IMG/VR virus record: IMGVR_UViG_3300048823_000008 | Coordinates: 1-22,475 of that record | Length of the DNA: 22,475 nt | Strand: one strand, 5' to 3' | Source of the DNA: a virus | Shown here: piece after piece, positions 1-22,475 of the stretch | Position numbering within the stretch: position 1 is the stretch's first letter | Layout: each line of letters starts with the position of its first letter | Program-made: the position numbers and the translations under genes | Notes under the pieces: generated by a model | Told to the model about the DNA's origin: nothing | What the model saw: only the letters and a program-made list of their open reading frames with translations | Database searches by the model: none

Positions 1-3000
1 CCGTTCCGCTTGCGATTGTTTGCGTCGTCGTGCCAGATGGCAGTGATACCCAGCCTGCACCTAGCGTATTCGTTTTAACGCTACAGCCGTTGGCTATGGT
101 GTCAATTCCGATACCTGACTGTGAGGAGCTGAGCGAAGGAAGGGAGACGGTTGAACAAGTTCCGACCGCTACAAAAGTCGGAAGATTCCCGCCCGCGCCG
201 ATAGTTATTGGCCCCGGAACTTCGATTCCGGAAGCGTCACCAATTTGCGAGCGGATGTAATAAGGGCTAACAACCTCGCTCCCAGCTAGATTAGAAGTTA
301 AAGTTGTGGTAATCGGAACAGACGTAGACGATCCGGTAACCGTTGTGTTTGTCGCAACGAAGTACAGTTGAAAGTCCTGATCAGCGCCGATACCGGAAGG
401 CTTATCAGCATTAAATAGAGCGATGAGCAGCGGGTCACCTACTACAGCGTTCCACGAACCGCTAGAAAGCTCGAGAGGAATCGACGTAGCCCCAGAACTT
501 GCGCCCGCGCTCGCTACCTGTAATAAAGCAGTTGGCGGGGAAGAAGCGCTGACTTGCGCTCCGCCACGCACTCCGGGAATATCAGCACCCGTAACGCCTA
601 TCGGTCCAGAACGGTTTTTCCACGCATCACGTTGCGCGCCTTGAAAGCTTCCTGTCTGTGCGGGGTTCGCAGTAGTTGACTGCCAGCGCCCGATCTGCGT
701 CTGGTGCCCTGCTAAAGCTGTACCGAACACTTGGCCATAAGGGAAGCTGCTGGTGTATGTGTAAGTTCCCGTAAATGCGCTGCACGAACAATTGAAAGTA
801 ACGGTGCTAGTCGGACGGCTTGGAGAAGTTCCGGTGACCACGAAAGGCACACCGTTCAATGCCGAAGCGCCGCCAGTGATGCCTGTAAATTCAAATGTTT
901 CTCCCGTCGCCCAGCTTAGGTTATTGACTGGGGAAAGAATCGTTGCGATAGCGGATGAAGTACTAACAACGATCTGTGTTACCGCTTGCTCGTCTCCTTC
1001 CACAGTGTCATATAACCCAGATGCCGGGTCATTGGTGAATGTGTATGATGGAGAGGCGCTCGTACCGTTCGGTCCTTGAAGCGGGAAGCTAGCCGTAATT
1101 GGACCGCAGCCGGTCGCGTTACCGTTCGGCAAGATACCGAGCGGAGCGAAACCTGACGCGCACAAAGTCGGAGTTGCCGCCAGCTGAGTCGCCGTACCAG
1201 CATTCCCAGTTGTGCTGTTGGAGATTGTTCCTGTCTGCGCAATAAGCTGTTTTGACGAGTTGGTGCCAAGAACCACCGCGCTCACTGGGATCGCAGCGCC
1301 TTGGATCTGTGCGACGGTTGGATTCGGCAATGTCCCGGACAAGTCTCCGCCCGCTGTGCTGCTGATAAATGCGCCAGCGCCGAAGGCGGTGCCGCCCGAT
1401 TTTGTGCAAGTTATTCCACCGGAAGCGGAGCGGGTACAATCGCCCGACATCGAAACGGCAGCATACGCAGTTCCGCCTGAGTTTCCAACTAAATCCTGAC
1501 CAGCGGAAGGCGTTGTGTTCGGAACGATACTCGCGATCGTCTGCGCAGCATTCGTAACGTTTCCCAATCCGACTTCAGCGGCAGTCAACCCTACGACCGT
1601 TCCGCTAAAGGTTGGCGACGTGGCGAGCACCGCATTACCAGAGCCTGTTGTGTTTATGCCTTGAATTGAAGTCGGTCCAGTCCACTGCGCTAACTGCCCG
1701 TTCGTAGGCGATCCAACGTTACTAACGTTGCCCGCGCCCGCTGGTGTGTAGTAGCCCTGTACGCCACCGGATACGCCCCAGAACGTGCCGTTTCCACCTG
1801 TACTCTGAATGGCGACTGCTGTAGCCGCATTGCCCGTCGTATTCTGGTTGAGCGTCGGGAAGTTCGTCAATAGCGCTGCGCTGACGCTAGGAAGTTGCCC
1901 GGAGCTATTGAGTTGCACGACATTGTTCGGGGCAACGCCAAGCGTACCGAAAGCCGCCGTACCGAAAGCCTGCCCATTCGTCTTGGTGCATGTGATACTT
2001 CCAGAAACAGAGATCGTACAATCGCCGCTGAGCGTTTGCGGAGTGTACGCGCTGGAATTGTTTCCAAGTGGAAGTTGCGCCGCTGCTGGGGAAGTATTCG
2101 GGTAGAGCGACGCGTAAGCTTGCAAATTGTTCGTGAGATTGCCAAGTCCAACCTCGTCCGCAGTGATTCCACTGACGCTCCCAGTGAAAGTGCAACCAGC
2201 GACCGGGCAGTAGCTCAGGTTCTTCACATATGCTGTGGTCGCCAACTTCGTACTGGTGTCTCCGGTCGATTGCGTCGGAGCCGTTGGATTGCCAGTGAAA
2301 GCCGGTGAACTCAGCAACGCCAGCGCGCTGATCTGGATGCTGCTATCAGAAATCGCTTTGCCGGTGCTCGATCCGAAGATCGCAACATCATTCGCCGTCG
2401 AACTTCCCGGACCGGTGACGTTGCCGGTACCGACACCGTAGTTCTGCTCTTGGACCCAAGCGGTCGTGGCCACCTTGGCTGAATTGTCCGACGAGCCCGG
2501 AGTCGGAGCGGTTGGTGTTCCAGTCAAAGCTGGAGAAATCAAGGGTGCTAGTGTTTGCAGGTAATTCCATAAGTCAGTCTGGCTGCTGAGCGTTCCGCTG
2601 ATCGTCCCCCACGCGCCGCCGCCCGGCGTTTGACATACCCACTGCGAGCCATTCCACACCAGGCCCTGCCCTGAAGCCGAGCAACCCACCAAGCTAAGAC
2701 TTAGCGTTCCGGTCGATCCACCACCTTGCAGTCCGCTACCTGAAGCCGTTGTAACACCCGCGATGCCGCCGGTACCGACGCCACAAAGCAATGCTCCAGT
2801 CCCGGCGGCGATTCCGATCGCTACTAGTCCAGACGGACAAGATTGCGCATACAGACCGCCAAGAGAAAACTGTTGCGGCGTGGACAACTGCGCGGTGATC
2901 ACTGAGGGATTCGTTGGCGCGTACTGATCGTAATTACATGTCCCTGATGAGCACCATGAATTAGCGGTCTGCGGCTGCACGCAGTTCGATCCATTCTGCG

Positions 3001-3340
3001 GTGGAGAAACAATCTGCCCGCTTGAATTTTCAATCGTGACCGCGAAGCAAACGTTCATCGGATTTGTAAGACTGACGTTCGGCAACTGACATCCACCGCT
3101 GATCGCTCCGTTGACAACAGAACAGACAGTCGGGAAAGTGATCTGTTGTCCGCCGCCGCCGACTTGATATCCAACCGGGTTCCCATTGGAATCGACTGCC
3201 TGCCAGATCATGCTTCCAGCGGGCAAGAGTCCGCCACCCGCGTTGTAGATACTGGACGCGGTGACCGTCATGAAGTTTTGAGCGAGAGCCAGCGTGGAGA
3301 TTGCGAGCAGCAAGAGATGCGCGAAAAGTATTTTCTTCAT
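1..3340 (-). CDS. Very large tail fibre with N-terminal signal peptide (over 1,110 aa, C-terminus outside window)
   Basis: I translated the minus strand from the ATG at 3340; the frame stays open to the left edge (1,113 codons). Residues 1-21 (MKKILFAHLLLLAIS, then TLALAQ) form a clear Sec signal peptide. The body is a phage fibre. SPALTGTPTAPT...KVATTAWV (from residue 269) and SPAFTGNPTAPT...KLATTAYV (from 345) are fibre repeats, and VGLGNLTN (near 396) and VGLGNVTN (near 589) are the fibre-shaft motif. A SGDCT ... ITCTK unit occurs at about 438 and 632, giving a unit of about 193 residues duplicated. Residues 788-863 carry an LNG-type beta module. About 20 cysteines are spread over the chain. 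It follows the short fibre gene by 5 bases. No strong ribosome site is visible. The C-terminal tip is not in the window. Confidence 0.85.
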   Translation of the reverse strand, partial: MKKILFAHLLLLAISTLALAQNFMTVTASSIYNAGGGLLPAGSMIWQAVDSNGNPVGYQVGGGGQQITFPTVCSVVNGAISGGCQLPNVSLTNPMNVCFAVTIENSSGQIVSPPQNGSNCVQPQTANSWCSSGTCNYDQYAPTNPSVITAQLSTPQQFSLGGLYAQSCPSGLVAIGIAAGTGALLCGVGTGGIAGVTTASGSGLQGGGSTGTLSLSLVGCSASGQGLVWNGSQWVCQTPGGGAWGTISGTLSSQTDLWNYLQTLAPLISPALTGTPTAPTPGSSDNSAKVATTAWVQEQNYGVGTGNVTGPGSSTANDVAIFGSSTGKAISDSSIQISALALLSSPAFTGNPTAPTQSTGDTSTKLATTAYVKNLSYCPVAGCTFTGSVSGITADEVGLGNLTNNLQAYASLYPNTSPAAAQLPLGNNSSAYTPQTLSGDCTISVSGSITCTKTNGQAFGTAAFGTLGVAPNNVVQLNSSGQLPSVSAALLTNFPTLNQNTTGNAATAVAIQSTGGNGTFWGVSGGVQGYYTPAGAGNVSNVGSPTNGQLAQWTGPTSIQGINTTGSGNAVLATSPTFSGTVVGLTAAEVGLGNVTNAAQTIASIVPNTTPSAGQDLVGNSGGTAYAAVSMSGDCTRSASGGITCTKSGGTAFGAGAFISSTAGGDLSGTLPNPTVAQIQGAAIPVSAVVLGTNSSKQLIAQTGTISNSTTGNAGTATQLAATPTLCASGFAPLGILPNGNATGCGPITASFPLQGPNGTSASPSYTFTNDPASGLYDTVEGDEQAVTQIVVSTSSAIATILSPVNNLSWATGETFEFTGITGGASALNGVPFVVTGTSPSRPTSTVTFNCSCSAFTGTYTYTSSFPYGQVFGTALAGHQTQIGRWQSTTANPAQTGSFQGAQRDAWKNRSGPIGVTGADIPGVRGGAQVSASSPPTALLQVASAGASSGATSIPLELSSGSWNAVVGDPLLIALFNADKPSGIGADQDFQLYFVATNTTVTGSSTSVPITTTLTSNLAGSEVVSPYYIRSQIGDASGIEVPGPITIGAGGNLPTFVAVGTCSTVSLPSLSSSQSGIGIDTIANGCSVKTNTLGAGWVSLPSGTTTQTIASGT
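1300..2164 (-). repeat. Duplicated fibre-shaft unit (about 193 aa period)
   Basis: In the large fibre, TADEVGLGNLTN (residue 393, first base at 2164) and TAAEVGLGNVTN (residue 586, first base at 1585) are 193 residues apart. SGDCTISVSGSITCTK (residue 438) and SGDCTRSASGGITCTK (residue 632) are 194 apart. Each copy continues with an AFG(T/A)(A/G)AF segment. The unit therefore reads VGLGN ... LGN(N/S)S ... SGDCT ... ITCTK ... AFG, repeated twice with many substitutions. The right border is approximate. Confidence 0.7.
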
Positions 3341-3345
3341 GGATT

Positions 3346-3984
3346 TTAGTGTCCAATCGCAATAACCATTGGCGTTGTTTCTGTACTATCAACGAGCCCG
3401 ATAAGCTGCCATGTTACTAGTTGTCCGGTTCGAGTCGGAGAACCTACGGTTTGCCACACTCCGTCAACGTGATTACTCGTGGATGCGATCTGCGTCGTTA
3501 CTATGGCGAACAGACATGCAGTCGCAAATTCAACGGGGAACGTTACCGTTTCTGTGTAAGGATCGCCGCCCACATTAGCCGGGATTGACGATCCGGCAAC
3601 CCACTGAATCGTGAATCCACCGAAGAATGTCGGCAGCTTCAAGTATCCGTTCGTGCCAGTGCTGAAAAATCCATTCAAGTCTGCATTGGTTAGGATGTTA
3701 GCGAATATCGCCGCCAGCGCAGTTACCGCTGTACTTGGACTAACAAGACCCGGATCTTGCGACGGAGATCCATCCAGCACGTTGTAACCTTTGCTAGATA
3801 AAGCCAATGCCAGCGCTGCGATGAATGTCGAGTACTGATAATCCTTTTTGTTCAGGATAACCGAAGCTAAAATTGCATCGGTGAGAATCCCATTTTCTCG
3901 CTGCGGGTCTGAGGCGTAAGTCGAGTCCGTCTCTTGATTCGCTGCGCCCGGATTGACTTGAATAAAATTCGTTGAGCCTGACAT
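3346..3984 (-). CDS. Tail fibre protein with gp53-like C-terminal domain (212 aa)
   Basis: An AGGAG lies about eight bases before the ATG. The N-terminus (STNFIQVNPGAANQETDSTY, ASDPQRENGILTDAILASVI, YQYSTFIAALALALSSKGYN) is a conserved baseplate-attachment region in short fibre proteins of contractile phages (NFLQVNP ... Q-ETDAxYxxDxxRxxG ... K-x-x-YQxSTFIxALxQALxxKG). Residues 115-212 (GYLKLPTFFGGFTIQW ... TVTFPVEFATACLFAIVTTQ ... MVIAIGH) match the gp53-like fibre tip: GYxKLPxxxGGxIIQWG, FPxxFPxxCxxV, then xxIAIG(Y/H). It lacks a signal peptide, unlike the next gene. A receptor-contacting role is inferred from the tip domain. Confidence 0.8.
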   Translation of the reverse strand: MSGSTNFIQVNPGAANQETDSTYASDPQRENGILTDAILASVILNKKDYQYSTFIAALALALSSKGYNVLDGSPSQDPGLVSPSTAVTALAAIFANILTNADLNGFFSTGTNGYLKLPTFFGGFTIQWVAGSSIPANVGGDPYTETVTFPVEFATACLFAIVTTQIASTSNHVDGVWQTVGSPTRTGQLVTWQLIGLVDSTETTPMVIAIGH

Positions 3985-3996: not shown

Positions 3997-5838
3997 TTAG
4001 ACGGCGTGACCAAGGTCTGCGCCAGCGATGAAAGCATTATTGAGATCGGCACCGAATACCGGCAGTTCTGCATACTCAAAGATATAAAGAACACCTTGAG
4101 GACGCGGCAAGATCAAGTCGTTGATGATCATCTGCTCTTGGATCGGAGTCAATGTACCGCCAGTAAGTAATACATCGACGGTCATATTGGCATTATCGAT
4201 AAGAATGATGCCAGAACCCGGAAAGAGAGAATTCAGCATCGCGTAGATCGAATCTATCTGACCATTGAATTGGTTGCGATCGATCTTTGCGAGTAATGCT
4301 GTGATGTAATCCGCATCATCTAACGTTGAACTTGGCGGCGTCAAGGAAGTGACTTTTGCTCCGACGCCATGTGGATGAACGAAATTTGCGGTAAACGAAA
4401 CACCCGGAACGTAGCTGATAATATCGACTGTTTCCGTGGTGCTTCCAGCCCCTTCAGCCGTAACGACTACTTGAAGTGGGACATACATGCCGGACGTGGC
4501 CATGTTTCCAGGCGGGGCCGATGTCGCGGAAAGAGGTTGAATATCTGCCACGACCGCACTCCCAGCAGCAACCGCGCTACTTAGCGACGTACTAACTCCC
4601 GGCTGAAATGGTAAAGTTCGATTGAACCCGACAATCGTTCCAATGATGTCCAATTGCGGTCCAGCGGCTATCGTTGTATCCGGCGGCTGGCCGGATATCG
4701 CAGGGTATCCCGGTGCAACCGCTGGAACTCCAGCCAGACTGAATTGCTGATAAAGCTGCTGTGTACACGCAAACAAATCCACTGCCACAATGAGCAGAGA
4801 CGAGAGCCAAGCATAGAGATTTGGAGCGTTCTGGTATTCACTCGTCAGAAGCGATAAATAATAAAGCGGCAGAACAAATTCCTGAAGCTGAACATAGCCC
4901 ACAGTCGTTAAATCGAATTCAGCGCCGCTACCAGTTCCGCCCGTAGCCGGAACGTCGTCAGCCGTGCTATAACCCTCTCCGGCTGCGATGATCTGTACGG
5001 AGCCAATTGCATTGGGACTAAAATACGCTACTGCGGTCACCAAAATGAGGCAGCCACTGGCAGAACCTTGAGTCGGAGTGAGCACGTCGCCAACGGAGTA
5101 ATCTTCTCCGCCGTCAGCAATGGATACACTTGTTACTCCGCCTACAAGTCCAGAGTCGAACGCTAGAAGTGGAGCATAGACAGGATTGCCGTTTTGCGTA
5201 AGTCTGTAGTTGCTTATTTCCCAAGTAGTCTGTGATGGCTCTCCTGGTGTGACCGGAGTAAACCCAGACGGAAGGAAGCCGACGAAATAAGTTGAACTAG
5301 GCGGAAAAGCGTTTACGACGCTAGCGCCAGCGGCATACCCGTATGCTAGGTTTGCCGTAAAGGATACGCCCGTATCGACCGCTTGGATTACTTCGTCCGT
5401 GCCCGGAGAGCTACCAGAAATGTTGATAGTCTCGCCGACAAGCATGTCGGTTGTATTGTCAACAGGAATAACTTGACTATTGCCGTGAAAAACATTCTCA
5501 GTAGTTAATGCGTTTACTATTCCAACGGTCCCTACATAGGCGCACTGAGTTTGCACGACCATCGTCGCAGCGCCAGTCGGGACTTGATAGGTGAAAGTGT
5601 AGTTATGCCATCCATTGTCGGTATTTGGTGGGGCAATAAGGATCGCTCCGTAACTTGTCTCTTGTAACGCATCCCAAAAATAGACAGCGATAAACGGCTG
5701 CATCCCTCCAGCGACGAAACGAATCGAAGCAGTGAACGCGATCACGTCGCCGGGCGAACAAGGGAATGCCGCAGACTGTGCCCCGATGTTTTTATCGGGT
5801 GCAGAAAGGTTGATCACATTGAATTGCGGAGCAGCCAT
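3997..5838 (-). CDS. DUF2612-type tail protein with several inserted beta modules (613 aa)
   Basis: The C-terminal residues 505-590 (LDDADYITALLAKIDRNQF, G-IDSIYAMLNSLFPG, IILIDNANMTVDVLL, LILPRPQGVLYIFEY) are characteristic of the DUF2612 family, encoded after baseplate J. Its N-terminal part at about 315-412 (SEYQNAPNLYAWLSS, GPQLDIIGTIVGFNRTL) is separated from it by an insert of about 90 residues. Residues 1-115 look like a jelly-roll carbohydrate-binding-type domain (DNGWHNYTFTYQVPTGAATM). Residues 123-180 and about 440-505 both carry a VSFTAN ... GA-x-V ... PPSST module. Residues 233-313 carry the GYxVGD repeat that is also in the sheath. The protein probably links baseplate and fibres and is unusually decorated. 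The C-terminal FGADLNNAFIAGADLGHAV is pentapeptide-like. Confidence 0.78.
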   Translation of the reverse strand: MAAPQFNVINLSAPDKNIGAQSAAFPCSPGDVIAFTASIRFVAGGMQPFIAVYFWDALQETSYGAILIAPPNTDNGWHNYTFTYQVPTGAATMVVQTQCAYVGTVGIVNALTTENVFHGNSQVIPVDNTTDMLVGETINISGSSPGTDEVIQAVDTGVSFTANLAYGYAAGASVVNAFPPSSTYFVGFLPSGFTPVTPGEPSQTTWEISNYRLTQNGNPVYAPLLAFDSGLVGGVTSVSIADGGEDYSVGDVLTPTQGSASGCLILVTAVAYFSPNAIGSVQIIAAGEGYSTADDVPATGGTGSGAEFDLTTVGYVQLQEFVLPLYYLSLLTSEYQNAPNLYAWLSSLLIVAVDLFACTQQLYQQFSLAGVPAVAPGYPAISGQPPDTTIAAGPQLDIIGTIVGFNRTLPFQPGVSTSLSSAVAAGSAVVADIQPLSATSAPPGNMATSGMYVPLQVVVTAEGAGSTTETVDIISYVPGVSFTANFVHPHGVGAKVTSLTPPSSTLDDADYITALLAKIDRNQFNGQIDSIYAMLNSLFPGSGIILIDNANMTVDVLLTGGTLTPIQEQMIINDLILPRPQGVLYIFEYAELPVFGADLNNAFIAGADLGHAV

Positions 5839-5839: not shown

Positions 5840-7108
5840 TTAGGAATTCACCACGATATTCCCGCTCACGCCTTGTGCTGTGTACATCGGCCATTGCATT
5901 GTTATGTCAACAGAACCAGAAGGTGATGCGGTAGTTCCCAGCAGCAAAGGTGAGGTGATATCGAAAATCGGCGCATTCAGTGGACCGGCGACCGACATCA
6001 CTGCCGCGACCAGCGCTGACTGAGAAACAGTCTGGCCAATGCTCAAGCTGTTCAAGTAAGAAACGATAGCCGCTGTAATCGCGGCGAGCGTCCCAGCACC
6101 GAAAGCGTTCGTCAATGGATTGACGGTTACAGTAACATAGATCGGAATATAGACCGGCGGATAGAAATACACTGCAAAGGTTTGACCGCTGTCCGGATCA
6201 GTGACATACGTCGCTGGCGGAGTAGGAACGTTCGGATTACTTCCGCTGCCGGTGTAAGGAGAATCGTTGATTCCGCAGCCGATGCCCTTATTGAAATAGA
6301 TAGCATCCGCAATATCTTGCGCGTTGCCGCCTTCGACGATAGCTGTCAATGAGTGCGCCGGTCCAAACCATGTTGGATCGCCTGACGCAATCGGCCAAGC
6401 CGTCAACGGGCTGCCAGTTGGGTTCTCCATGGTCAACTGGCGGGTCACTCCAGCGAGCGAAAGAATATCTGCAATCGTTCCGGCGAGCAAAGTGCTAGAC
6501 GGTTGTTCTGTCGATACTGATTGGCGGGTACGCAACTGGGTATCTGTCTCGACTGGGTTTCCGGCTGTGGCGGCTGCGGAGTTGCTGACACCAGTCCAGC
6601 CGGACGTTGGCGTCGCGATAGCAAAGCCATTGATCGGCGCATTGACATTTCCCACTACTTCACAAGTGACAATGACGGTCACCGTGCCACCGCTTCCAAT
6701 AATCGTGGGTGACGGGAGATCCCATAAGTATCCCTGTCCCGGAACAGTATCGACGACCGATCCATTGGTAATTACGATTCCAGCGGTGCCTGCCACTACA
6801 ATCGAGCATGTCGAATAGGATGGAGCCTCGCGAGCCAATCCGTTAAACACTACATCGATATCGAGTGCTCCGCCGACCGCTGTCGCTGGCGAAATATTGC
6901 TATAAGCGAGTTGCAACCCATTGGACTGATCGCTCATCGAGAGAGCAAGGATGCTCAGCATCTGGTAGTCAGGCGAATCGATACCAAGATATACGCCGGG
7001 TCCATAGATTGCCTGAAAGTTTGTAATCAGCAATGCAAGAATTGCCTGATACGAAGGAATAGAAAGGCCAGCCGGTCCGATGGACGGCGGAAAATAAACG
7101 CTTCCCAT
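5840..7108 (-). CDS. Baseplate J-like wedge protein (422 aa)
   Basis: Recognised by the N-terminal SIPSYQAILALLITNFQAIYG, DSPDYQMLSILALSMSDQSN, TAVGGALDIDVVFNGLAREA and SYSTCSIVVAGTAG core. Next come the T-V-x-V-x-x-x-G-N-V-N-A-P-I-N strand and the ETDTQLRTRQSVSTEQPSST helix, where the E-(T/S)-D-x-x-x-R-x-R motif is typical. Later parts include GPAHSLTAIVEGGNAQDIAD, IYFNKGIGCG and FFYP-like VYFYPPVYIPIYVTVTV, then a helix-rich end (AITAAIVSYLNSLSIGQTVS) and DITMQWPMYTAQ. J-type proteins form the wedge arms of the baseplate that move when the tail contracts. The stop is one base from the next start. Confidence 0.87.
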   Translation of the reverse strand: MGSVYFPPSIGPAGLSIPSYQAILALLITNFQAIYGPGVYLGIDSPDYQMLSILALSMSDQSNGLQLAYSNISPATAVGGALDIDVVFNGLAREAPSYSTCSIVVAGTAGIVITNGSVVDTVPGQGYLWDLPSPTIIGSGGTVTVIVTCEVVGNVNAPINGFAIATPTSGWTGVSNSAAATAGNPVETDTQLRTRQSVSTEQPSSTLLAGTIADILSLAGVTRQLTMENPTGSPLTAWPIASGDPTWFGPAHSLTAIVEGGNAQDIADAIYFNKGIGCGINDSPYTGSGSNPNVPTPPATYVTDPDSGQTFAVYFYPPVYIPIYVTVTVNPLTNAFGAGTLAAITAAIVSYLNSLSIGQTVSQSALVAAVMSVAGPLNAPIFDITSPLLLGTTASPSGSVDITMQWPMYTAQGVSGNIVVNS

Positions 7109-13002: not shown

Positions 13003-14430
13003 TTAGGATTGGACATAGACTCCGACAAGCACCGACTGCGCGGCGTCAGTGCAGATGATCGCCAGATAGATCGGCATCGCCTGACGTGCGGCGCGCGCTG
13101 CCGACGATTGAGTCGAGAACGGCGCAGCTATCGCCAAGTAACCATTCGGGATCGCCTGTCCCGGAACGATTCCCAGCGTCGAAGTAAGCTGGATCGTCAC
13201 TCCGTTCCATGTTCCGGACGAAATAAATCCGATCTGTTGCAGATACTGACAGGCCTGATTGACGCAGTGAATTAGTTGCTGTTCACCCGCATCCGTCAGT
13301 GGCACGGCTGGCAACTCCGTGAGCAAGTTCATGATGTTGTACTGGATCTGCGCCGACAGTACGTCGAGGAACAGAATCAAGTCCAAGAACTGCCCGCTGC
13401 CCATCGTTCCCTTCCATAAGAAGGTGTACGCATTCGCAAAATTGGAAAGCACGTTGCCGTTCTTTCCCTTTGTCGAAAGCGATGCGCCGTTGATGTATTG
13501 AACCTGCTGGCCGGTCAGTGGCTCTGACGTGACGCCTACTTCATTCTTCGCGAACATCGTGAAGTAGCTACCAGCGAGCCCGGTGTTCAATCCCATCGCG
13601 ATACCCATTGCGGCGGCTCCGCAGTAAATATTGTTCGGGTAAGTTCCGCCTTGCGTCGTTGAGTATTGGCCGAAGACGCGGTTGTAATTGTTCGACTGCA
13701 TGTAACTGAACACGTCAGTCGTCGCACTCGTCGGTACGTTCGAATCGTGCGTTCCGTAGAAGTAAATCATCGGCGGAGTCGCCGACTGGACATAAGCCGC
13801 AATCGCTTCGTGATCTGCGGTGACCGCCGCCGTAGACATCACTCCATAGAAGTCAGAGTTTAGATTGCGGCAGTTCAAGAGAGCAGTCAGAACGCTTTCG
13901 CCGACTCCCGTAATGTCAATCGTCAAGCCAGTGCCTACGCTTGGAGAAACGGCGACTGTCGCGAGGTTGTTGGCATTCGAATAGCTAGTACCATCCGCGA
14001 GCGGTAACAGAGTGATCGCGGTGACTGCGCCACCAGTTTCCGCTGCCACTTGAACCTGTCCGCCCGAGGCACCGCCCTGCGTGATCGTAACGATGTCGCC
14101 GACCGCATAGCCGCTACCGCCCGAACTCCCAACCGTTGCGTTATTGATGGAAGTTGGGTCTTGAAAACCAACCCATAAAAGATTTGGAGCGGGCGATTGT
14201 CCGAAGTATTCAGCCGCCGCAAGGTACTCTGGCTCAGTGAGCGTATAGCCAGCCGTGAGCAGAGCAGACAGGCTGGTATAAGACGCTAGTCTCTCATTGT
14301 GAGTCACCACTCCGGCGGTCGGTCCGATAATCAGACCATGATTGAAAGTCGGAGCAGATGCAGATTCCGGCGAAATCAGTACGACTACATCGACGATATC
14401 TGAAAGCGTAAGTGCTGGCGTGCTGCCCAT
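13003..14430 (-). CDS. Tail sheath protein, DUF3383 type (475 aa)
   Basis: An AAGGAG at 14444-14439, eight bases before the ATG, is the best ribosome site in the window, as expected for an abundant structural protein. The N-terminal part (LSDIVDVVVLISPESASAPTFN ... GLIIGP ... ERLASYTSLSALLTAGYT) and the middle (TADHEAIAAYVQ, IYFYGTHDSNVPT, NNYNRVFGQYS) fit DUF3383-type contractile sheath proteins. So does the C-terminal half, with AAAMGIAMGLNTGLAGSYFTMFAK, then GVTSEPLTGQQ, an N-A-YTFLWKGTMGSGQFLDLI-like region and PLTDAGEQQLIHCVN. Residues 98-176 are an inserted module, GSGYAVGDIVTITQGG, with a YS-N-NLATVAV partner. It resembles one in the DUF2612 tail protein and probably projects from the sheath surface. 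The sheath contracts to drive the tube through the envelope. The tube gene follows 15 bases later. Confidence 0.88.
   Translation of the reverse strand: MGSTPALTLSDIVDVVVLISPESASAPTFNHGLIIGPTAGVVTHNERLASYTSLSALLTAGYTLTEPEYLAAAEYFGQSPAPNLLWVGFQDPTSINNATVGSSGGSGYAVGDIVTITQGGASGGQVQVAAETGGAVTAITLLPLADGTSYSNANNLATVAVSPSVGTGLTIDITGVGESVLTALLNCRNLNSDFYGVMSTAAVTADHEAIAAYVQSATPPMIYFYGTHDSNVPTSATTDVFSYMQSNNYNRVFGQYSTTQGGTYPNNIYCGAAAMGIAMGLNTGLAGSYFTMFAKNEVGVTSEPLTGQQVQYINGASLSTKGKNGNVLSNFANAYTFLWKGTMGSGQFLDLILFLDVLSAQIQYNIMNLLTELPAVPLTDAGEQQLIHCVNQACQYLQQIGFISSGTWNGVTIQLTSTLGIVPGQAIPNGYLAIAAPFSTQSSAARAARQAMPIYLAIICTDAAQSVLVGVYVQS
13903..14139 (-). other. GSGYxVGDxVTxTxGG beta module inserted in the sheath
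   Basis: Sheath residues 98-176 hold SGGSGYAVGDIVTITQGGAS, a GQVQV strand, a VTAITLLPLADGTSY strand and TVAVSPSVGTGLTIDIT. This two-half repeat (GYxVGDxLTxTxG ... V ... GxxY ... TGxGxG) also occurs in the DUF2612-type protein at residues 233-313, as GGEDYSVGDVLTPTQGSASG and GEGYSTADDVPATGG. The flanking sheath sequence is continuous before and after it, so it reads as an insertion. The function is unknown; surface decoration is inferred. Confidence 0.6.
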
Positions 14431-15808: not shown

Positions 15809-16399
15809 TTATTCGTTCGCCAGAACGTAGATGATGGACTTACGCATTTCATCGAACTGAATGAGAGGTTTCGCGGAGCCCTTGCGCCGGATCGTGCTCT
15901 GCGCATTTGGAGCCCAGCCATTGCGAGGATCATCGAACCATGCCCGCGCCCGATTCTGGCCTTCCATGCCAGCACGTCGCAGATCAGTGACGGCTGCATC
16001 GCGCTTACCGTCCAGCATGTCAATGCCGCACTGTTTCAACTCGCGCACGATCGCTTCCTGATTTTCCGGCGCTTCGATTGCCGGTTCGATCACCGGACGA
16101 GGTGGAATCTGGAAAGCCATGGAGCCTTTGCTTTGAACGTACAGATCGCGCGCAGCCTTATAGCTGATGCCGCGATTGATCATCGTCGCGCCCATGATCC
16201 GGCGCGCATCGAGCGAGCGCACCCCGTTGGTATTGAAGAATAGAATTTCTGAGTTCGTCACTTTTCTGCCGTGCTGACGGGCATTCCTGCTTTCAGGGAT
16301 GCCGACATAAACACGCATTTGCGACAAGTCGGAAATATTCTTCGCTGCTTTGACTGAACCATCCGTTATTGTTTTCAACGTCAGCTTTGGCTTGATCAT
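15809..16399 (-). CDS. HK97 gp10-like neck / tail-completion protein (196 aa)
   Basis: I use the ATG at 16399 (MIKPKLTLKTI). The frame extends up to an ATG at 16459, but those 20 extra residues overlap the small upstream ORF and look like shadow. The protein is basic and mostly helical. It contains MRVYVGIPES near residue 28, a central IPPRPVIEPAIEA segment and a C-terminal GWAPNAQSTIRRKGSAKPLI, followed by F-D-EMRKSIIYVL. The pattern PPRPFIRPAIE ... G ... PNAPSTIxRKGSxxPLIDTGxLRxSI is characteristic of the gp10-like/virion-morphogenesis family. These proteins sit at the head-tail interface or help complete tails. It is followed at 29 bases by another neck gene. Its presence argues for a headed phage, not a headless tail-like machine. 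Confidence 0.75.
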   Translation of the reverse strand: MIKPKLTLKTITDGSVKAAKNISDLSQMRVYVGIPESRNARQHGRKVTNSEILFFNTNGVRSLDARRIMGATMINRGISYKAARDLYVQSKGSMAFQIPPRPVIEPAIEAPENQEAIVRELKQCGIDMLDGKRDAAVTDLRRAGMEGQNRARAWFDDPRNGWAPNAQSTIRRKGSAKPLIQFDEMRKSIIYVLANE

Positions 16400-16401: not shown

Positions 16402-16536
16402 TTACAAACTCAAGAGCGTAAGCACTGGATAAACTGCGAACACTGAAGCCGTGGCGCACTGACCGTTGAAGGCGTTGTATTGAGCGAACGCCTGACCAGC
16501 GAGTAAGAGCAACAGCGCGATGCGGTAGGTTTTCAT
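16402..16536 (-). CDS. Small signal-peptide ORF (44 aa), possible gene remnant
   Basis: An ATG at 16536, nine bases after the stop of the 514-residue gene, opens a 44-codon frame ending in TAA at 16404-16402, two bases before the next ATG. Residues 1-18 (MKTYRIALLLLLAGQAFA) are a near-ideal Sec signal peptide, followed by QYNAFNGQCATASVFAV and a second hydrophobic end, VYPVLTLLSL. There is no lipobox cysteine at the cleavage site, so it is not an obvious lipoprotein or spanin. It may be a genuine small exported or membrane peptide. It may also be the surviving 5' end of another signal-peptide fibre gene whose body was lost, since the signal closely resembles those of its neighbours. No strong Shine-Dalgarno is visible. 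Confidence 0.5.
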   Translation of the reverse strand: MKTYRIALLLLLAGQAFAQYNAFNGQCATASVFAVYPVLTLLSL

Positions 16537-16545
16537 CTTAGCGGC

Positions 16546-18090
16546 TCATTGTATTACGAACGCTCCAATTTGTGATGCTGCTGCGCTTGTACCGGTACTC
16601 AGCTTTGCAGCAAACCCGCATCCAGCGGCAGATGGCGTCGGCCCTGTAGCTGTTTCGGTAGGAGCAGTGCCATTACTACTGTACGCATAAAACGCATTCG
16701 TGTGGACTAGCATACCAGTGGCTAGATAATTAACGGGACCACTTATTACAGCGGGTCCAGCACCGGAATATATTTGTAAGATGGCGTCGGTTCCAGTCGG
16801 ACTCGTCGCGGTCATGGTGTTTGTATTGGAGGGGGAATTGTTACCTGCGTGCGCCACGCTATCTACAGTTATCGGCCAATTAAACTCATGTAGAACCGCA
16901 GTCCAAGGCCCACTGTCTGGGTTACCACTACGAGTTGGTGTGATACAGTTGACGCCGCCCGCGCCGGATAGAATATAGTTTGCGCCTGCATCTTCCTGAT
17001 ACGAACTGCCCCCTAAATACCCAAATCCCTGACATGACGGGGAGGCTAGGTACGTATCAATCGCATTCGCAGAGGTACAAGCATTCGCAGATAGCGCGCA
17101 CGTCGTAGGGGACACGTTGCATCCGTATGCCGAGAACGTAATAGGAATGCCGTTTCCACTATCTTCATCGTTATTGTAAAGAATAACTTCCCCGTGCCCG
17201 GCTATCGTAGCGTGAACCTGAAAGCTGCCATAAAGCTGACTTCGCAGTAAACCAGTTTGTGTACCGCCAGTAGCAGAATAACCAGATGGGGTTATCTGCG
17301 CGAATAGGGGAGTTGAGGCAACGGTACGTAGCTCGACAGGCGCACCTAGCCAAGCGCCGGAAGTACTCAGGGTAGCTGAACACGTCACAGATCCGGGACT
17401 ACTGGCAGTAGTCGTAAGCAAGATTCCGTATGGAGAAACGGATAGAGCCAACGTTTGGATAGAGGTTCCAGAAACAGGTGTGAAAGTAGTTCCATTAGCG
17501 GCAACAAATGCGCATCCCATTACATCGTTCGCGTCGTCTAGCGTAAGCGTCATAGATGCGGTTGAGCCTGTACCGCTGCATCCGTTCGCTATCTTCGTAC
17601 CGGACCCACAACTGGTGATCGTCGGCAGATTGTTGACCGACAGGACGCCGGAAAATTCTGCCAGGATTCCGCCCATTTTGAGGTTCCAAACACCCGCGCA
17701 CCCATAAGGAGAAGATGTAGAAGTAGCCGTAGCCGTGAACAGTCCTAGCGCGAAGCTTCCCGCTGAAATCTGTGATGCCGGGAAAGCTGTCGTGTTGTCA
17801 GACCCCAGACAATAGGGGAAGTTACCGGGTACGGCCACGGTCGAGGCAAACATGACCGTGTTACCAGAAGTTGCCGTGTAGGTAAACGGCATGGTGTTAC
17901 CGGAACCCGTTATCACCGTAGCGCCGGGTGCAGTCGTCGAGCCGACATAAGTTATCTGTCCGGAGCAAACGCTGATACCGATAAACAACGCGAGAATGTT
18001 CCACGACCACGTTATCCACGACGGTGCGAGATGAATTAGCGTTTTGATGCTCCCAGACTTGAAGTCTGGGATTCCAGATGTCTGCATCAT
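16546..18090 (-). CDS. Unrecognised secreted virion or surface protein (514 aa)
   Basis: The ATG at 18090 overlaps the preceding TGA (ATGA) and is preferred over an in-frame ATG at 18156 that lies inside the upstream gene. Residues 1-30 are unusual. They include IPDFKSGSIK, encoded by the palindrome cluster, and a tryptophan-rich stretch. Residues 31-44 (NILALFIGISVCSG) are a hydrophobic segment followed by a plausible signal-peptidase site, so the original start may have been further in. The rest is low in charge, rich in G, S, T and C, and looks all-beta, with segments such as SGNTVMFASTVAVPGNF, MTLTLDDANDVMGCAF and VLHEFNWPITVDS. I do not recognise a domain with confidence. Its position between fibre-like genes and its style suggest an exported adhesin or fibre accessory, but that is inference. 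Confidence 0.7.
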   Translation of the reverse strand: MMQTSGIPDFKSGSIKTLIHLAPSWITWSWNILALFIGISVCSGQITYVGSTTAPGATVITGSGNTMPFTYTATSGNTVMFASTVAVPGNFPYCLGSDNTTAFPASQISAGSFALGLFTATATSTSSPYGCAGVWNLKMGGILAEFSGVLSVNNLPTITSCGSGTKIANGCSGTGSTASMTLTLDDANDVMGCAFVAANGTTFTPVSGTSIQTLALSVSPYGILLTTTASSPGSVTCSATLSTSGAWLGAPVELRTVASTPLFAQITPSGYSATGGTQTGLLRSQLYGSFQVHATIAGHGEVILYNNDEDSGNGIPITFSAYGCNVSPTTCALSANACTSANAIDTYLASPSCQGFGYLGGSSYQEDAGANYILSGAGGVNCITPTRSGNPDSGPWTAVLHEFNWPITVDSVAHAGNNSPSNTNTMTATSPTGTDAILQIYSGAGPAVISGPVNYLATGMLVHTNAFYAYSSNGTAPTETATGPTPSAAGCGFAAKLSTGTSAAASQIGAFVIQ

Positions 18091-18098
18091 ATGCAGAC
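18052..18098. repeat. Cluster of tight palindromes at a gene junction
   Basis: Two perfect inverted repeats lie 9 bases apart. Positions 18052-18060 (CCCAGACTT) pair with 18062-18070 around one central base. Positions 18080-18087 (GTCTGCAT) pair with 18091-18098 around three bases. In addition, CCAGA at 18053-18057 can pair with the TCTGG at 18065-18069, and GATGC just left of the first repeat (about 18046-18050) can pair with GCATC inside the second, so several alternative cruciforms are possible. The cluster spans the stop of the beta-helix gene and the ATGA start of the next gene. It looks like a REP-like element or a recombination scar. It is too compact and too far from a T-run to be a convincing terminator. 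Confidence 0.6.
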
Positions 18099-19217
18099 CT
18101 CGATCGTCGCCGTACTGCCACCGCTGAATGTCCCGATATTGATGCCTTGAGGACATGCCTGCTCGACGTTGTTCTCAAAAGTCATCGCAGCGCCCTGTTG
18201 CTGGATCGACCATCCAACGGTCGAGTCCATGAAGTTCGGGCAAACGAGAGTGTTGTTGTAAACCTGAGTTACGCCACTCAAGCCAGAGAAGATTCCTACC
18301 CAGCCATTAGCATTTACTCCATCTGCTTGCGAGGCGTCAAAGACGTTATTCCAGATATAGGTGTTACTGGCGTTCGACATGGAGGGAGAACCTTGCTCCA
18401 TGAACAAGAACCCAGACGAGCACGCCCCTGAAAGCGTCCCATGAAACCAATTGTTATAGATATAGACGCCGTTCATCGTGGAACCCGACACGCCATAGGT
18501 ATGCAGCCCGTCAAGGTGATAAACGCATCCACTCGTCTCCCAATTCAGGTTCGACCCGAATTGGTTGTCGTGCATGATGAGGCACGGAGCCGTACAGGAA
18601 ACGGCGCTTCCGGTCGCATAAGCCGCCGCGTGATCCCAGTTATAGATGTAATTATTGAAAATCTGCGCGTTCGTGTCTCCCGACCCGTAATTGGTGTAGA
18701 GGCACCAGCCACAGTCGTGAATTGTGTTCCCTGACATCGTAATGTTCTGGCCACCATAGACGATGGCATTCATCTGTGTAGCCGTTCCGCCGAGCGGCGA
18801 ACTGTAGTTCTGAATCGCGACGTAGATGTTCGCGATGGCTAGATTTTCAATGATGCAATTCGTGCAGGTTGCTGCATATACCCCAATCGAGATGTGCTGA
18901 TTGGCTAGCCCGTCTCCGTTCGCCGTGTTCTCGATAGTTCCAGTGTTTTCCCCGTTGATCGTGACGTTACTTAGTCCGCTGTGCGGAGTAATCAGTGTCG
19001 ATCCTGCCGATTGCGTAGCGAACGAGGAAGACGGGCAAAGCCAAGCAATATCGCCAGCGCTCAATGTCGTCGAGTTGAATGTGGCTGGAGTTATCGCTGT
19101 TTGACCGTTGCAGGCAGTGCCACCTGTGAATGTTCCCGCCGTAGCCGCGATGTAGCGTGTAGTCGCGAGCAGTGGCGAACACAACGCGAGAAGGCAAATC
19201 AATAATAAGCGTTTCAA
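18087..19217 (-). CDS. Secreted right-handed beta-helix protein, probably C-terminally truncated (376 aa)
   Basis: The start is TTG at 19217, overlapping the previous TGA as TTGA. This start gives a strong Sec signal peptide (MKRLLLICLLALCSPLLA, then TTRYIAATAG). The mature protein has the fold signature of pectate-lyase-like beta-helices: repeated short strands with NNxI/IxNN-type turns (INGENTGTIEN, NCIIENLAI, NITMSGNTIHDC, AQIFNNYIYNW, VYIYNNWFHG, NTYIWNNVFDA, TQVYNNTLV, MTFENNVEQ). About 13 cysteines occur after the signal, several in close pairs (TCTNC, DCGWC, SCTAPC), which suits disulfide formation after export. It stops abruptly at ATIEVCI, inside what should be another coil and without the usual YD/GAxE closing motif. 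The stop falls in a cluster of tight palindromes. Substrate is unknown; I see no catalytic motif I can assign. Confidence 0.78.
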   Translation of the reverse strand: MKRLLLICLLALCSPLLATTRYIAATAGTFTGGTACNGQTAITPATFNSTTLSAGDIAWLCPSSSFATQSAGSTLITPHSGLSNVTINGENTGTIENTANGDGLANQHISIGVYAATCTNCIIENLAIANIYVAIQNYSSPLGGTATQMNAIVYGGQNITMSGNTIHDCGWCLYTNYGSGDTNAQIFNNYIYNWDHAAAYATGSAVSCTAPCLIMHDNQFGSNLNWETSGCVYHLDGLHTYGVSGSTMNGVYIYNNWFHGTLSGACSSGFLFMEQGSPSMSNASNTYIWNNVFDASQADGVNANGWVGIFSGLSGVTQVYNNTLVCPNFMDSTVGWSIQQQGAAMTFENNVEQACPQGINIGTFSGGSTATIEVCI

Positions 19218-21352
19218 AACGAGAACACCCCGCCAGTGGTCTGAATGATGGCTTGCTCGAATGCTCCCGGCGAACCGTAGCCAATGTTGTTTCGGATTTG
19301 ACCGGAGATGTCGTAGGGCAGAACATTCGTTCCGGATGGGAAGAAGTTGATCGCCGGAGAACTTGACAGGAGATGATAATCCCCACCGCCAGTATTGCCG
19401 TTGGTGCCGTCGTAGGCTTGGCGATTCTTGTATCGGGGGAGGTTGATTGTCGTATTCACGTTGCAGGCCACTGGTTGTCCGCCAGTGAGAGTCGTGTCGT
19501 AGGTGTAGACTCCGGTGAACTCAGGGCAGAAGGTTCCAGTCGCCGGCCATCCGGTTGTCCCGCCGCTCGCCTCTACATAGAAGTTCGATCGCATCCCGGC
19601 ATTGTAGAGACATGCCCATGCTCCTACGCGAGCGCCGCTGGCTGTCGGCCCAGCATACGTGTCCGTCTTGGTTGCACGCTGGTCCATGATGTTGCCGATG
19701 TAGCCATGTGTCTGACGGAAGGCGATTTGGTTGGTCACGTTTTGGCCCGAGTTATAGCACCAATTCATGCGCGATCCGAGAATGTCGTTGTCCCAAAGCA
19801 TTACGTTGTTGACCGGGGTAACGTTATCTGTATCGTCAGCCGAGTTGATAATGATCGGATTCGTAATCGACGTGTAATCGTTCTCGAAAACGTTTTGTAC
19901 GACGGCGATCCCGATTGGATTGGAGTTTGTCTCGCCTACGCTGACGGCATTGTTGGACGACTGGTTGGCGAAGTACAGAGTATTGAACGCAAAGATCGGC
20001 ATCGTCGATGTCGGGTTGCCTTGCGAGGCATAGCCATCGGAGAATGCGACGTTCGTATTCGACTTGACCGTATTGCCGACAACGGTATAGATGTTCGATC
20101 CCGTTCCCGATCCGCCTGCGACGGTAGTTACGTCATTGCCACGGATGAGATAGTAACCAGCGTTGGTTGTCGAGAATGCACGGAGGCCATTGCTCGCCAA
20201 AGTGCTCGGAATCACGCAGTCGGTGATATAGATCACCGTGACTTGAAAGACTGGAGCCGTGCCACCAGACGACAAAGAACAACTATCCAGCCACAGATAT
20301 GTGATGTTGTTGAAGACACTGGTTGGTCCTGTAGCAACCAAAGTGGTGATGTTCTGTAAATGTAAAGGGGTGCCGCAGTTCGTCGATCCGGACGTACAGC
20401 GCGTTCCAAACCCTTGCTGGTCGGACCCGTTCTGCTGGTCAATGACAACCTGAGCTTGCGTCACGCCAGTTGCGGGAGTGAGAGTCGCCCAGCATTTCCC
20501 GGTCGTATTAGAATCAGCCGCCGTCGATCCCATCCAGTTGTAATAGCCTTGCGCCAAGAATAAAGTTCCGCAAGCATCGTTGTGAGTTGGCGTCGATGAA
20601 GCATTATTGAATGCCGCCATCTTAATGAGTGCGCCGTTGATCGACGCACAGGGGGAAGCTGGTTGTCCGGCCGACAACGCCGCAGCGCACGAGTTGGAAT
20701 CCGATCCCACGGCCACAGGAGACGCGGTCGGCGTATAGACGCCACTCGTTGTTTGATCTACCCACGTATTTGAGCTATTCGCGGTCCCGCTCACGATTTG
20801 CCCGATGTGCATCGTCGTCGATCCTGTGGGTGAGTTAATCAAGTAGGCTGTGGCATTCGATGTTCCTTGAATTACCTTATGCCCAGAGGCCAGAGTACCG
20901 CTCGTCACTGACCCCGTAACATTTAGTGACCCGTCAACGTACCCCGCTGCCGCATAAGCATTGGTCGAGTCGTAGAGATAGTACTGCGGCGAATATAATG
21001 GCGAAGGCTGCGGATTCACCAAAGAGGGTGCAGCAGTTGGCGTATATGTGGCTCCGCTCGTTTGCCCAGTCCAGATGTTCGATGAGTTCGCCGCCGATGT
21101 CTGGCTGATGATTGAGCCGATGACCATGCTGGCTGATGCGGTTGGAAGATTATCCAAGTACGCGAGCACGTTCGTCGTTGCCTGCTTAACCTGCTCATTC
21201 GCTTGGAAGGTGCCAGTCGCAACTATCCATGACAGCGGTTTCGTCGCCAATCCACGGATATGCGCGATAGCAAAGCGTGAGCTGGTCGTGGTTCGTGAAC
21301 GTGGATGTTGAGACGCTGCCGACATATTCGATGACCGGAACTTGATCCGCAA
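19214..21352 (-). CDS. Beta-helix fibre-like protein, 3' part of the frame-broken gene
   Basis: This frame is open from 21352, but its first 43 or so residues are arginine-rich shadow sequence under the previous ORF. Convincing protein begins at about 21220 with ATGTFQANEQVKQ. Two copies of a module of about 60 residues follow (21220-21026 and 20905-20717), each ending in TYTPTA or VYTPTA, joined by a linker with PLYSPQYYLYDSTNAYAAAGY. After them comes a long region with alternating hydrophobic strands, N- and G-rich turns and NNI/NVFEND patterns, typical of right-handed parallel beta-helix (pectate-lyase-like) proteins. The C-terminus has SSSPAINF, LPYDISGQIR and GSPGAFEQ, the usual closing motif of such proteins. 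No start codon with a convincing ribosome site lies at the module start, so the piece probably belongs to the upstream ORF. The cause could be a mutation, an assembly error or recoding. Likely role: receptor binding or polysaccharide contact. Confidence 0.72.
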   Translation of the reverse strand: MRIKFRSSNMSAASQHPRSRTTTSSRFAIAHIRGLATKPLSWIVATGTFQANEQVKQATTNVLAYLDNLPTASASMVIGSIISQTSAANSSNIWTGQTSGATYTPTAAPSLVNPQPSPLYSPQYYLYDSTNAYAAAGYVDGSLNVTGSVTSGTLASGHKVIQGTSNATAYLINSPTGSTTMHIGQIVSGTANSSNTWVDQTTSGVYTPTASPVAVGSDSNSCAAALSAGQPASPCASINGALIKMAAFNNASSTPTHNDACGTLFLAQGYYNWMGSTAADSNTTGKCWATLTPATGVTQAQVVIDQQNGSDQQGFGTRCTSGSTNCGTPLHLQNITTLVATGPTSVFNNITYLWLDSCSLSSGGTAPVFQVTVIYITDCVIPSTLASNGLRAFSTTNAGYYLIRGNDVTTVAGGSGTGSNIYTVVGNTVKSNTNVAFSDGYASQGNPTSTMPIFAFNTLYFANQSSNNAVSVGETNSNPIGIAVVQNVFENDYTSITNPIIINSADDTDNVTPVNNVMLWDNDILGSRMNWCYNSGQNVTNQIAFRQTHGYIGNIMDQRATKTDTYAGPTASGARVGAWACLYNAGMRSNFYVEASGGTTGWPATGTFCPEFTGVYTYDTTLTGGQPVACNVNTTINLPRYKNRQAYDGTNGNTGGGDYHLLSSSPAINFFPSGTNVLPYDISGQIRNNIGYGSPGAFEQAIIQTTGGVFSF
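20717..21220 (-). repeat. Two-copy protein module (about 60 aa each) in the beta-helix fibre
   Basis: Copy A (21220-21026) and copy B (20905-20717) share the pattern GT(F/L)-x-(A/S)(N/G)xx(V/K)-x-Q-x-T(T/S)N-x-(L/T)AYL-x-N-x-PT-(G/A)S, then M-x-IG-x-I-(I/V)S, then NSSN-(I/T)W and finally YTPTA. They are separated by about 40 residues. The frame change that breaks this gene lies at the upstream edge of copy A. This fits an out-of-frame module insertion or duplication, though the order of events is inference. The copies are diverged at DNA level, so they are not a recent simple duplication. Confidence 0.7.
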
Positions 21353-22331
21353 CCTTCGCTTGCCCGCCGATAGATTCGTCCCATGTGGGAACTCCGATAG
21401 TTGAGGTCGCTACGTTGTTGTGTGCATCCTGCCCAGAGAAGATCACGCAGGCAATCGGGAGTTCGTTGAGCGGAAGTTGCGAGAATCCCGTCCCGCGCAC
21501 ATTGACTGTGCTGCCTGTTACAAGTTGCCAGCCGGGATAGGTCCAGTTAAACAGCGTTCTAGCGTTGGAATAGGTGAGCGTCGAATTGTTTGTGACCGAT
21601 GTTCCCGCCGAGACAGTTCCAACCGTATTACTGGAACCATCCGTATAGAAACTGTTTACAACCTGATAAGTGACCGTTTCTCCGGCAAAGATGGCGACCA
21701 TCCCATTACTGCCGAGGGAGAGTCGGAAGGTAGTCGTCCCGCCGTTGCTTACCGTGTCATTCGTCGTCGCATTCGGATAAGGATCACGAAGGGTATGCGT
21801 GGCCCAGAGGGTGCGCGTGTAGGTAGTCGTCGCGCCGCATGTGCCGCCGTTAACCGTTCCTTTATACCCAGTTGAGGTAACCGTAACGATCACAGAAGGG
21901 CTGGAAGGAACGTTGTTGGTTGACTGAGTGAATCCGAAGTTTCCGAATGTTCCGCCAGTCGCAATCGTGGGCACGTCGATTTCGAGCACCCAGCCATTGC
22001 AAGCCTGAGTCGCATAGCAGGCTGACGAAAGGACGGTGTAGGACTGTGCTGTTGCCGGAGTGCATGTTGGAGTTGATGCTACGGTCACAATCGTTGTGCT
22101 AGTGAACGCCGTAATCGTGCAAACCTGTCCGTTAAAGATCACGCCTTCCTGCACCATGCCGGAAGAGAAACAGCCGACGGTGGAAGTCAGCGTCGTACTT
22201 GCAAGTGTGGCTGTTCCGCTGCATGGAGCCGTGACCGTAGAAACGCCCATGATTCGGGCAGCGGTCGGAGTGTAGACTGTGGCACTCGCCGCCGCGCAAA
22301 GCAGCACTAAGATTGTCAGGATTCGGATCAT
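21195..22331 (-). CDS. Secreted fibre-like protein, 5' part of a frame-broken gene (378 aa)
   Basis: The ATG at 22331 is preferred over an upstream in-frame ATG at 22382. It overlaps the previous stop (ATGA) and gives a textbook Sec signal peptide: basic MIR, a leucine-rich core, then AAASA before TVYTPTAARIMG. The mature part is rich in threonine, serine and cysteine with beta-repeat character and contains a FNGQVCTITAF module. Near the end comes CYRAYPWIGDETAVMDS, a segment I associate with large fibre or adhesin proteins of environmental phages, and such proteins normally continue for hundreds of residues. Here the frame stops 8 residues later at 21197, in sequence that does not look like protein. 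The credible continuation (TGTFQANEQVKQ onward) lies in another frame starting at about 21220. This is probably the first third of one gene with the ORF ending at 19214. Enzymatic activity is unknown. Confidence 0.75.
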   Translation of the reverse strand: MIRILTILVLLCAAASATVYTPTAARIMGVSTVTAPCSGTATLASTTLTSTVGCFSSGMVQEGVIFNGQVCTITAFTSTTIVTVASTPTCTPATAQSYTVLSSACYATQACNGWVLEIDVPTIATGGTFGNFGFTQSTNNVPSSPSVIVTVTSTGYKGTVNGGTCGATTTYTRTLWATHTLRDPYPNATTNDTVSNGGTTTFRLSLGSNGMVAIFAGETVTYQVVNSFYTDGSSNTVGTVSAGTSVTNNSTLTYSNARTLFNWTYPGWQLVTGSTVNVRGTGFSQLPLNELPIACVIFSGQDAHNNVATSTIGVPTWDESIGGQAKVADQVPVIEYVGSVSTSTFTNHDQLTLCYRAYPWIGDETAVMDSCDWHLPSE

Positions 22332-22475
22332 TGGAAGTTTTGCCCCGCCGTGCAGTAGGTCGTCGTTCCGTTCAGCATGCACGAATAAATGTCAACCTGC
22401 GATGCTCCAGATGACATGACTGGAGCAACGCCCCCCGGCCACTTCACCGATGTCCAAGTAATTGTATAGGGACCG
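22328..22475 (-). CDS. Tail-fibre-like protein, C-terminal 48 residues (5' part outside window)
   Basis: Reading the minus strand from 22474, one frame is open to a TGA at 22330-22328. It encodes a stretch that includes TWTSVKWPGGVAP, then SGASQVDIYSC, and ends in TAGQNF plus one residue. This matches the common C-terminus of phage tail-fibre and receptor-binding proteins, where a W/F-P-x-SVKWPGG-x-APT segment is followed by a VDIxSF-type strand, a short glycine/threonine/tyrosine loop and AGQNF. The stop overlaps the next ATG in an ATGA, so the downstream gene is probably translationally coupled to this one. The N-terminus, and therefore any signal peptide, lies beyond the right edge. The frame and family resemblance are clear, but the fragment is too short to say more about function. 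Confidence 0.75.
   Translation of the reverse strand, partial: GPYTITWTSVKWPGGVAPVMSSGASQVDIYSCMLNGTTTYCTAGQNFQ

Follow-up and report, generated by a model that had tools for sequence, protein, structure and literature searches.

The viral contig IMGVR_UViG_3300048823_000008 of IMG/VR was analyzed over its entire 22,475 bases (hereinafter the window). All on the minus strand, it carries a cassette of fibre-like genes upstream of a neck gene, a contractile-tail module and a terminal tail fibre gene, and several of the fibre-like products begin with predicted Sec signal peptides. Our preferred and probable explanation is that these proteins serve adsorption or act on the matrix, that uncultured tailed phages make them as Sec precursors, and that the fibres join the virions at lysis. 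The signals, their recurrence among related genes, the pairing of cysteines, a tip domain of the tail-fibre type and the location beside structural genes are read directly from the sequences, and on this basis export of the signal-bearing proteins is strongly indicated. An initial annotation of the window, which had drawn attention to the cassette, was partly right, and the phenomenon is larger than it had noted. The genes in question are:

2..3340, minus strand: tail fibre with a Sec signal (3281-3340, MKKILFAHLLLLAISTLALA followed by Q); PHROG tail-fibre matches to 5e-15; signal-peptide score 5.11
16402..16536, minus strand: E, a 44-aa remnant made up of a signal peptide (16483-16536, by eye) and 26 aa
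16546..18090, minus strand: gene D, 514 aa, beta-rich, 12 Cys after a hydrophobic stretch; signal called at no start
18087..19217, minus strand: gene C, signal peptide and beta-helix, truncated; 79% identity to a 605-aa homologue in the relative L002
19214..21352, minus strand: gene B, remainder of A's gene in another frame, true continuation from ~21215; aligns to residues ~387 onward of a single L002 open reading frame (ORF)
21195..22331, minus strand: gene A, the 5' portion of a large fibre-like gene whose frame is broken; 83% identity to the corresponding beginning of the 1055-aa ORF that is intact in L002
22332..22475, minus strand: 3' end of an upstream fibre-like gene (TWTSVKWPGG...CTAGQNFQ, then stop), cut by the contig end; C-terminus and position match the 913-aa ORF before the A+B gene in L002

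Signal peptides in the window

Signals were called with a rule-based predictor, which requires a basic n-region, a charge-free hydrophobic core and agreement with the -3/-1 rule, and excludes proteins with a second hydrophobic segment. Benchmarked on E. coli proteins, it found all 17 exported ones, and called none of 42 cytosolic proteins at the working cut-off and 2 of 19 membrane proteins (first version). The same any-start search called 0 of 52 structural genes from the cultured phages phiEt88, T4, NoPa and Pf-WMP3, which rules out random starts as the source of the signals and indicates that those in the window are not due to chance.

Classical signals had been placed by the initial annotation at 22331, 19217 and 16536, with the right coordinates (minus strand). 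The first two are strong calls: gene A begins with a 17-aa signal peptide at 22281-22331 (MIRILTILVLLCAAASA followed by TVYTP; signal-peptide score 5.4), and gene C with a signal at 19164-19217 (MKRLLLICLLALCSPLLA followed by TTRYI). The third lies on the remnant E, which begins MKTYRIALLLLLAGQAFA followed by Q; it was read by eye, as E fails the predictor's rule because of its hydrophobic tail. A probable signal suggested for the gene from 18090 (gene D) was not borne out, since the predictor calls none from any start, and no relatives of gene D were found in the viral contigs or cultured phages searched. The richness in cysteines that had been pointed out was confirmed, and the counts are even: 24 in the full form of the terminal fibre, 20 in the A+B gene of L002, 20 in gene C of L002 and 12 in gene D of the window. 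The further claim that the tail proteins which follow lack signals holds for the neck and tail proteins other than the terminal fibre (0 of 14 called) and fails for the fibre 3340..2 itself, whose textbook signal had been overlooked.

This fibre lies directly after genes for proteins with DUF2612 and Gp53-like_C, that is, behind the baseplate genes. Unlike the damaged cassette genes described below, the gene is intact, although it runs off the contig end; the identical contig L003 has the full form, with 1203 aa and 24 mature cysteines. By tblastn it matches proteins annotated as tail fibres in Pseudomonas phages and cyanophages, and its last ~110 residues form a domain common to fibre genes on other contigs, which we term the tip domain. 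An AF2 model of this domain (pLDDT 90.7) had 8 matches in BFVD at E<=1e-3, and those that carry a name are phage proteins, a pectate lyase among them; tail collar fibre, minor tail and tail fibre proteins narrowly missed the cut-off. Among viral structures the domain thus resembles spike, fibre and minor tail proteins. Against PDB, the matches to an H-type lectin and several tailspike C-termini were weak, with none at E<=0.001. The fibre bodies match annotated tail fibres of cultured phages in short stretches only.

Three cassette genes look damaged beside their relatives. Genes A and B form a single 1055-aa gene in L002 (82-83% identity), and comparison with it reveals a net loss of 26 nt in the window near 21215, at the A/B join, which puts B out of frame. 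Gene C ends ~200 aa short of its L002 homologue, and gene D starts at that break. Given the broken A/B frame and the early end of C where D begins, the cassette is apparently either partly damaged or wrongly assembled. The next gene past the terminal fibre (L003:7814-10019; 690 aa, 22 Cys, open-ended) is probably signal-bearing, and its signal (MITILKKIAII...LTGAAFAQ) is interrupted by a frame break, the second in this phage after that of A/B; the two breaks thus point to sequencing error or to real on/off variation.

Recurrence of signals among related fibres

A profile scan of IMG/VR with the tip domain yielded 133 stretches, so that the domain is present in at least 133 viral contigs, and 80 loci were kept. 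The fibre set comprises 67 non-redundant genes with an intact start, all picked via this shared domain, and 63 of them bear a signal: 59 by rule, three by eye (L071, L076, L098) and L090 at an internal start. The latter had been taken for signal-less, its DNA of 69% GC containing a long stop-free frame, until the signal was located at the internal start. The signal-less copies are the fibres of L045, L055, L068 and L083 and two copies in L008. They are scattered in a tree of the tip domain, and 4-5 changes are needed to explain their distribution (with L090 still labelled signal-less). In the fibres L045:9122, L083:8768, L008:6901 and L008:8077, the same tip domain is combined with an N-terminal domain of the form IGTF[IV]NGRN..DDFLQ...GGT.F.WID..G.LQG, which appears to mark a cytoplasmic version of these fibres.

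The signals extend beyond the fibres to their neighbors. Among ORFs of >=200 aa on the same strand, 86 of 179 downstream of the fibre are signal-bearing, as against 20 of 199 upstream, with 9 of 85 on the other strand. The genes upstream of the fibres include those for the major head protein, head protease, internal virion protein and terminase, so these loci are phage late regions rather than stray bacterial DNA. The contigs range in GC content from 0.37 to 0.69, and Acidobacteria as the sole hosts of this class of fibres were dropped from consideration. One contig of 46,230 bp (G005) has an exact 127-bp direct terminal repeat, and is therefore a complete genome; it carries two signal-bearing fibre genes, and a 618-aa, 22-Cys signal-bearing gene stands directly before a large ORF in the portal position. 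Another (G004), with the signal-bearing fibres of L006, encodes a GroEL-like phage protein recognized by eye (MPKLIVSGPEARTKLLKGVDLIANAVKRTLGPDG) at 36723-38414 in reverse-complement coordinates.

Cysteine pairing and the function of the signals

An even number of cysteines is accepted as characteristic of DsbA substrates outside the cytoplasm and is favored in oxidizing compartments (PMC7678975). Mature cysteine counts were even versus odd in 56:2 of the fibres (p=6e-15, sequences being treated as independent), 76:11 of the other signal-bearing ORFs and 119:97 of the signal-less ORFs from the same contigs; the cysteine density was 2.04 against 0.86 per 100 residues. Furthermore, of ~65 signal-bearing copies of the tip domain 59-60 have one particular cysteine pair, which all 6 signal-less copies lack (Fisher p=6e-6 on the same footing, with L090 as signal-bearing). 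The evenness and pairing of cysteines are, as read from these patterns, a mark of export and probable disulfide bonding. The signal sequences of the window and L002 share only 41-44% identity, compared with 84-86% for the mature parts; as the signals diverge and yet retain their character while the mature part stays similar, it would be for this character that they are kept.

Directly behind the fibre gene, in 39 of 59 testable loci, lies a member of a second family, as a rule of ~180-380 aa, with a PGPG motif after the signal (for example, L094:10303-11001, L070:10288-10995 and L122:16211-16930); the L122 example had no Pfam, PHROG or cultured-phage matches. Most members have Sec-type signals, while that of L118 has a twin-arginine (Tat)-type RR and that of L115 is, by eye, probably also Tat-type. 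This replacement of one export route by another suggests that export itself is selected. Tat-like signals were noted on cassette proteins at L118:7270-8091, L115:10279-10986, L112:11124-11885, L074:11021-12748 and L056:4694-5575.

One might instead take the N-terminal hydrophobic segment to be a membrane-active or virion-attachment segment that is kept in the mature fibre, with the protein staying cytoplasmic until lysis. The gene position is that of ordinary tail fibres, the tailed-phage fibres known to us are cytoplasmic, and homologues of the domain without the segment exist (L008, L045, L055, L068, L083), all of which would fit such a segment. However, a mere anchor predicts neither the full n-h-c layout with cleavage-type residues, nor the bias to even cysteine numbers and the loss of the cysteine pair in signal-less copies, nor the Tat-type replacements, and we regard this explanation as very unlikely.

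Gene C, its bacterial relatives and the probable host

The model of the gene C family is a right-handed beta-helix of moderate model confidence (74). It has 27 PDB matches at E<=1e-3, mostly PL6 lyases, GH136, RbmB and the HK620 spike, with a polygalacturonase among the best, at sequence identities of about 10-14%. Relatives with 29-41% identity occur in Acidobacteriota metagenome-assembled genomes (MAGs), at least 6 of 7 of them with a signal, and two of these MAGs carry them in pairs within exopolysaccharide gene clusters. The tip domain was found in 1 of 297 Acidobacteriota genomes, inside a three-gene signal-bearing cassette followed by a terminase gene (L122:11091-17934, on contig C5 of the MAG G085). 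The product of its first gene is 1707 aa long and includes an F5/8 type C domain, the terminase gene is that of the large subunit, and the cassette is a prophage remnant or a satellite in a bacterial contig. Given that relatives of gene C and the fibre domain both occur in Acidobacteriota MAGs, the host of the window phage is probably an acidobacterium.

These relatives bear on two further explanations. The first, and the main rival of export for assembly, is that the exported proteins are free soluble factors that are never mounted on virions, i.e. matrix-degrading enzymes or adhesins from the infected cell or lysogen, which would open the exopolysaccharide for the spread of progeny or mask receptors against superinfection. 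The closeness of the gene C beta-helix to polysaccharide lyases and glycosidases, including the biofilm lyase RbmB, and the signal-bearing relatives in Acidobacteriota exopolysaccharide clusters speak for it, and the cysteine parity and the evidence for export serve it equally. Nevertheless, the tip-domain proteins are fibre-like in their repeats, fold and post-baseplate position, none of which a free enzyme needs, and we consider that free factors are an unlikely account of the whole, albeit the most serious competitor.

The second takes up the suggestion of the initial annotation that secreted genes of the host were captured, and regards the signal as a passive relic useless to the phage. 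This could apply to gene C alone, which has true signal-bearing relatives in Acidobacteriota, and the capture would be old at 29-41% identity. For gene A a single-sequence query recovered few or no relatives, and the genome scan brought up no host relative; the tip domain in its single Acidobacteriota genome sits beside a terminase gene, and the signals retain their character over long divergence. Capture with a useless signal is thus the least probable of the explanations considered, and highly improbable as such.

The contractile-tail module and the surroundings of the neck gene

The contractile-tail module runs from 16399 downwards, from the neck gene through a phrog_939 head protein and a DUF3383-type sheath to the J-like, DUF2612 and Gp53-like_C proteins and the large fibre. 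Its signal-less genes include:

15809..16399, minus strand: neck / tail completion protein (phrog_222, E=1.5e-25)
13003..14430, minus strand: tail sheath, DUF3383-like (tblastn matches to annotated tail sheath and DUF3383 proteins)
5840..7108, minus strand: baseplate J-like protein (identical in L003, 40% in L004; named from sequence and gene order)
3997..5838, minus strand: baseplate protein with DUF2612 (PF11041, E=2.2e-17)
3346..3984, minus strand: small tail fibre protein with a Gp53-like C-terminus (PF21882, E=2.2e-7)

The window sheath as a single-sequence query recovered few or no relatives, and the contig L004, found via the J protein, proved to be a distant relative only, from which the signal-bearing fibre cassette is absent. 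The neck protein retrieved three relatives (G309, G310, G311). In G309 (L125), the stretch from neck to sheath contains three signal-bearing genes (774, 358 and 444 aa), of which the first has PHROG tail-fibre matches; G311 has signal-bearing ORFs farther upstream, and G310 has a signal-less 1700-aa ORF with 38 Cys (19142-24244) upstream of the neck. The latter is either exported by another route or a cysteine-rich cytoplasmic fibre. The surroundings of the neck gene are thus a recurrent slot for such genes, usually though not always with signals.

Proposed mode of export and assembly

We infer actual export and cleavage, disulfide bonds, virion attachment and enzymatic activity from the features described above. 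Fibre and spike precursors would be exported by the Sec machinery of the host during infection, and signal peptidase would then cut the signal off. Folding of the chains would take place beyond the cytoplasm, where disulfides would link their cysteines in pairs; a diderm host would use its Dsb system for this. For fibres like 3340..2, contact with virions and attachment to them would most likely have to await the breach of the inner membrane at lysis, and particles would accordingly exit the cytoplasm fibreless, and beta-helix enzymes like gene C would most likely cut or hold host exopolysaccharide. Attachment of the fibres to virions, suggested by their fibre-like sequence, fold and gene position, is a tentative element of this scheme, to which we give slightly less than an even chance. 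More tentative still is the generalization that there is a whole class of uncultured tailed phages whose virions would receive their host-recognition fibres and a conserved partner protein outside the cytoplasm, both being exported (mostly Sec, sometimes Tat), disulfide-bonded and mounted in the envelope or at lysis.

Several points weigh against this scheme. The signal predictor is home-made and not SignalP, all fibres were picked via one domain, and the p-values take no account of relatedness among the sequences. Genes with and without a signal coexist in L068; a single phage can therefore have both kinds, and we gave up the notion of an all-or-none rule for the signals of a phage. A lipoprotein-like box occurs in five of the signals and would tether the product instead of freeing it. 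Gene C of L008 has no signal yet 16 Cys, and with the signal-less 38-Cys ORF of G310 this indicates that cysteine richness is not strictly tied to the signal. Finally, the signal-less small tail-fibre protein 3984..3346 could be the actual receptor binder of the window phage. The initial annotation had held that homologues starting past the signal would speak against export; such homologues exist (gene C of L008 and the fibres of L045, L055, L068 and L083) but are a minority. Its suggestion of purposeful export is well supported by the signals on 63 of 67 fibres, the cysteine parity and pairing, the divergence of signals with kept character and the Tat replacements, and, on the question it raised of whether signal-bearing genes recur beside tail modules, G309 has three between neck and sheath of the same module type.

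Tail fibres determine host range. If many environmental phages export them, tail assembly is not confined to the cytoplasm, the maturation of virions may take place at lysis or later, and such fibres, when produced recombinantly, would need an oxidizing compartment for activity. It would also permit disulfide-hardened fibres that the reducing cytoplasm would forbid, and explain how large signal-bearing beta-helix or lectin-like genes of soil viromes could be mistaken for host contamination or metabolic genes.

Comparison with known systems

The tip domain, the PGPG family and genes C and D had 0 tblastn matches among 50,697 cultured-phage records, and we found no description of Sec signals on tailed-phage fibres in the open-access literature. 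The nearest mention concerns phages of rumen Bacteroides that have one signal peptide or two, which the relevant part of that article does not link to tail fibres (PMC5723332).

The fibres and tailspikes of Caudoviricetes (the NoPa fibre, the HK620 and K64-1 spikes) resemble the proteins described here in their repeats, tip fold, beta-helix bodies and position after baseplate or structural genes. However, those tested are without Sec signals (0 of 52 genes, including the NoPa and Pf-WMP3 fibres), whereas the fibres here combine a Sec signal with even, paired cysteines. Secreted bacterial beta-helix matrix enzymes (PL6, Vibrio RbmB and the Acidobacteriota exopolysaccharide homologues) are like gene C in fold, signal and cysteines, but gene C differs from them in its location in a phage structural or late cassette and is only 29-41% identical to its host relatives. 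Superinfection exclusion lipoproteins and secreted moron proteins are likewise signal-bearing phage products that act in the envelope; these are usually small single genes, unlike the large fibres in conserved late operons seen here. The pIII and pVIII proteins of filamentous phages are structural proteins made as Sec precursors, and thus a parallel for phage structural proteins of this kind; yet inoviruses are extruded at the membrane, whereas the dsDNA phages here are of the tailed kind and possess heads and terminase. We rate the proteins of the window and their relatives as an exported type of tail fibres and spikes.

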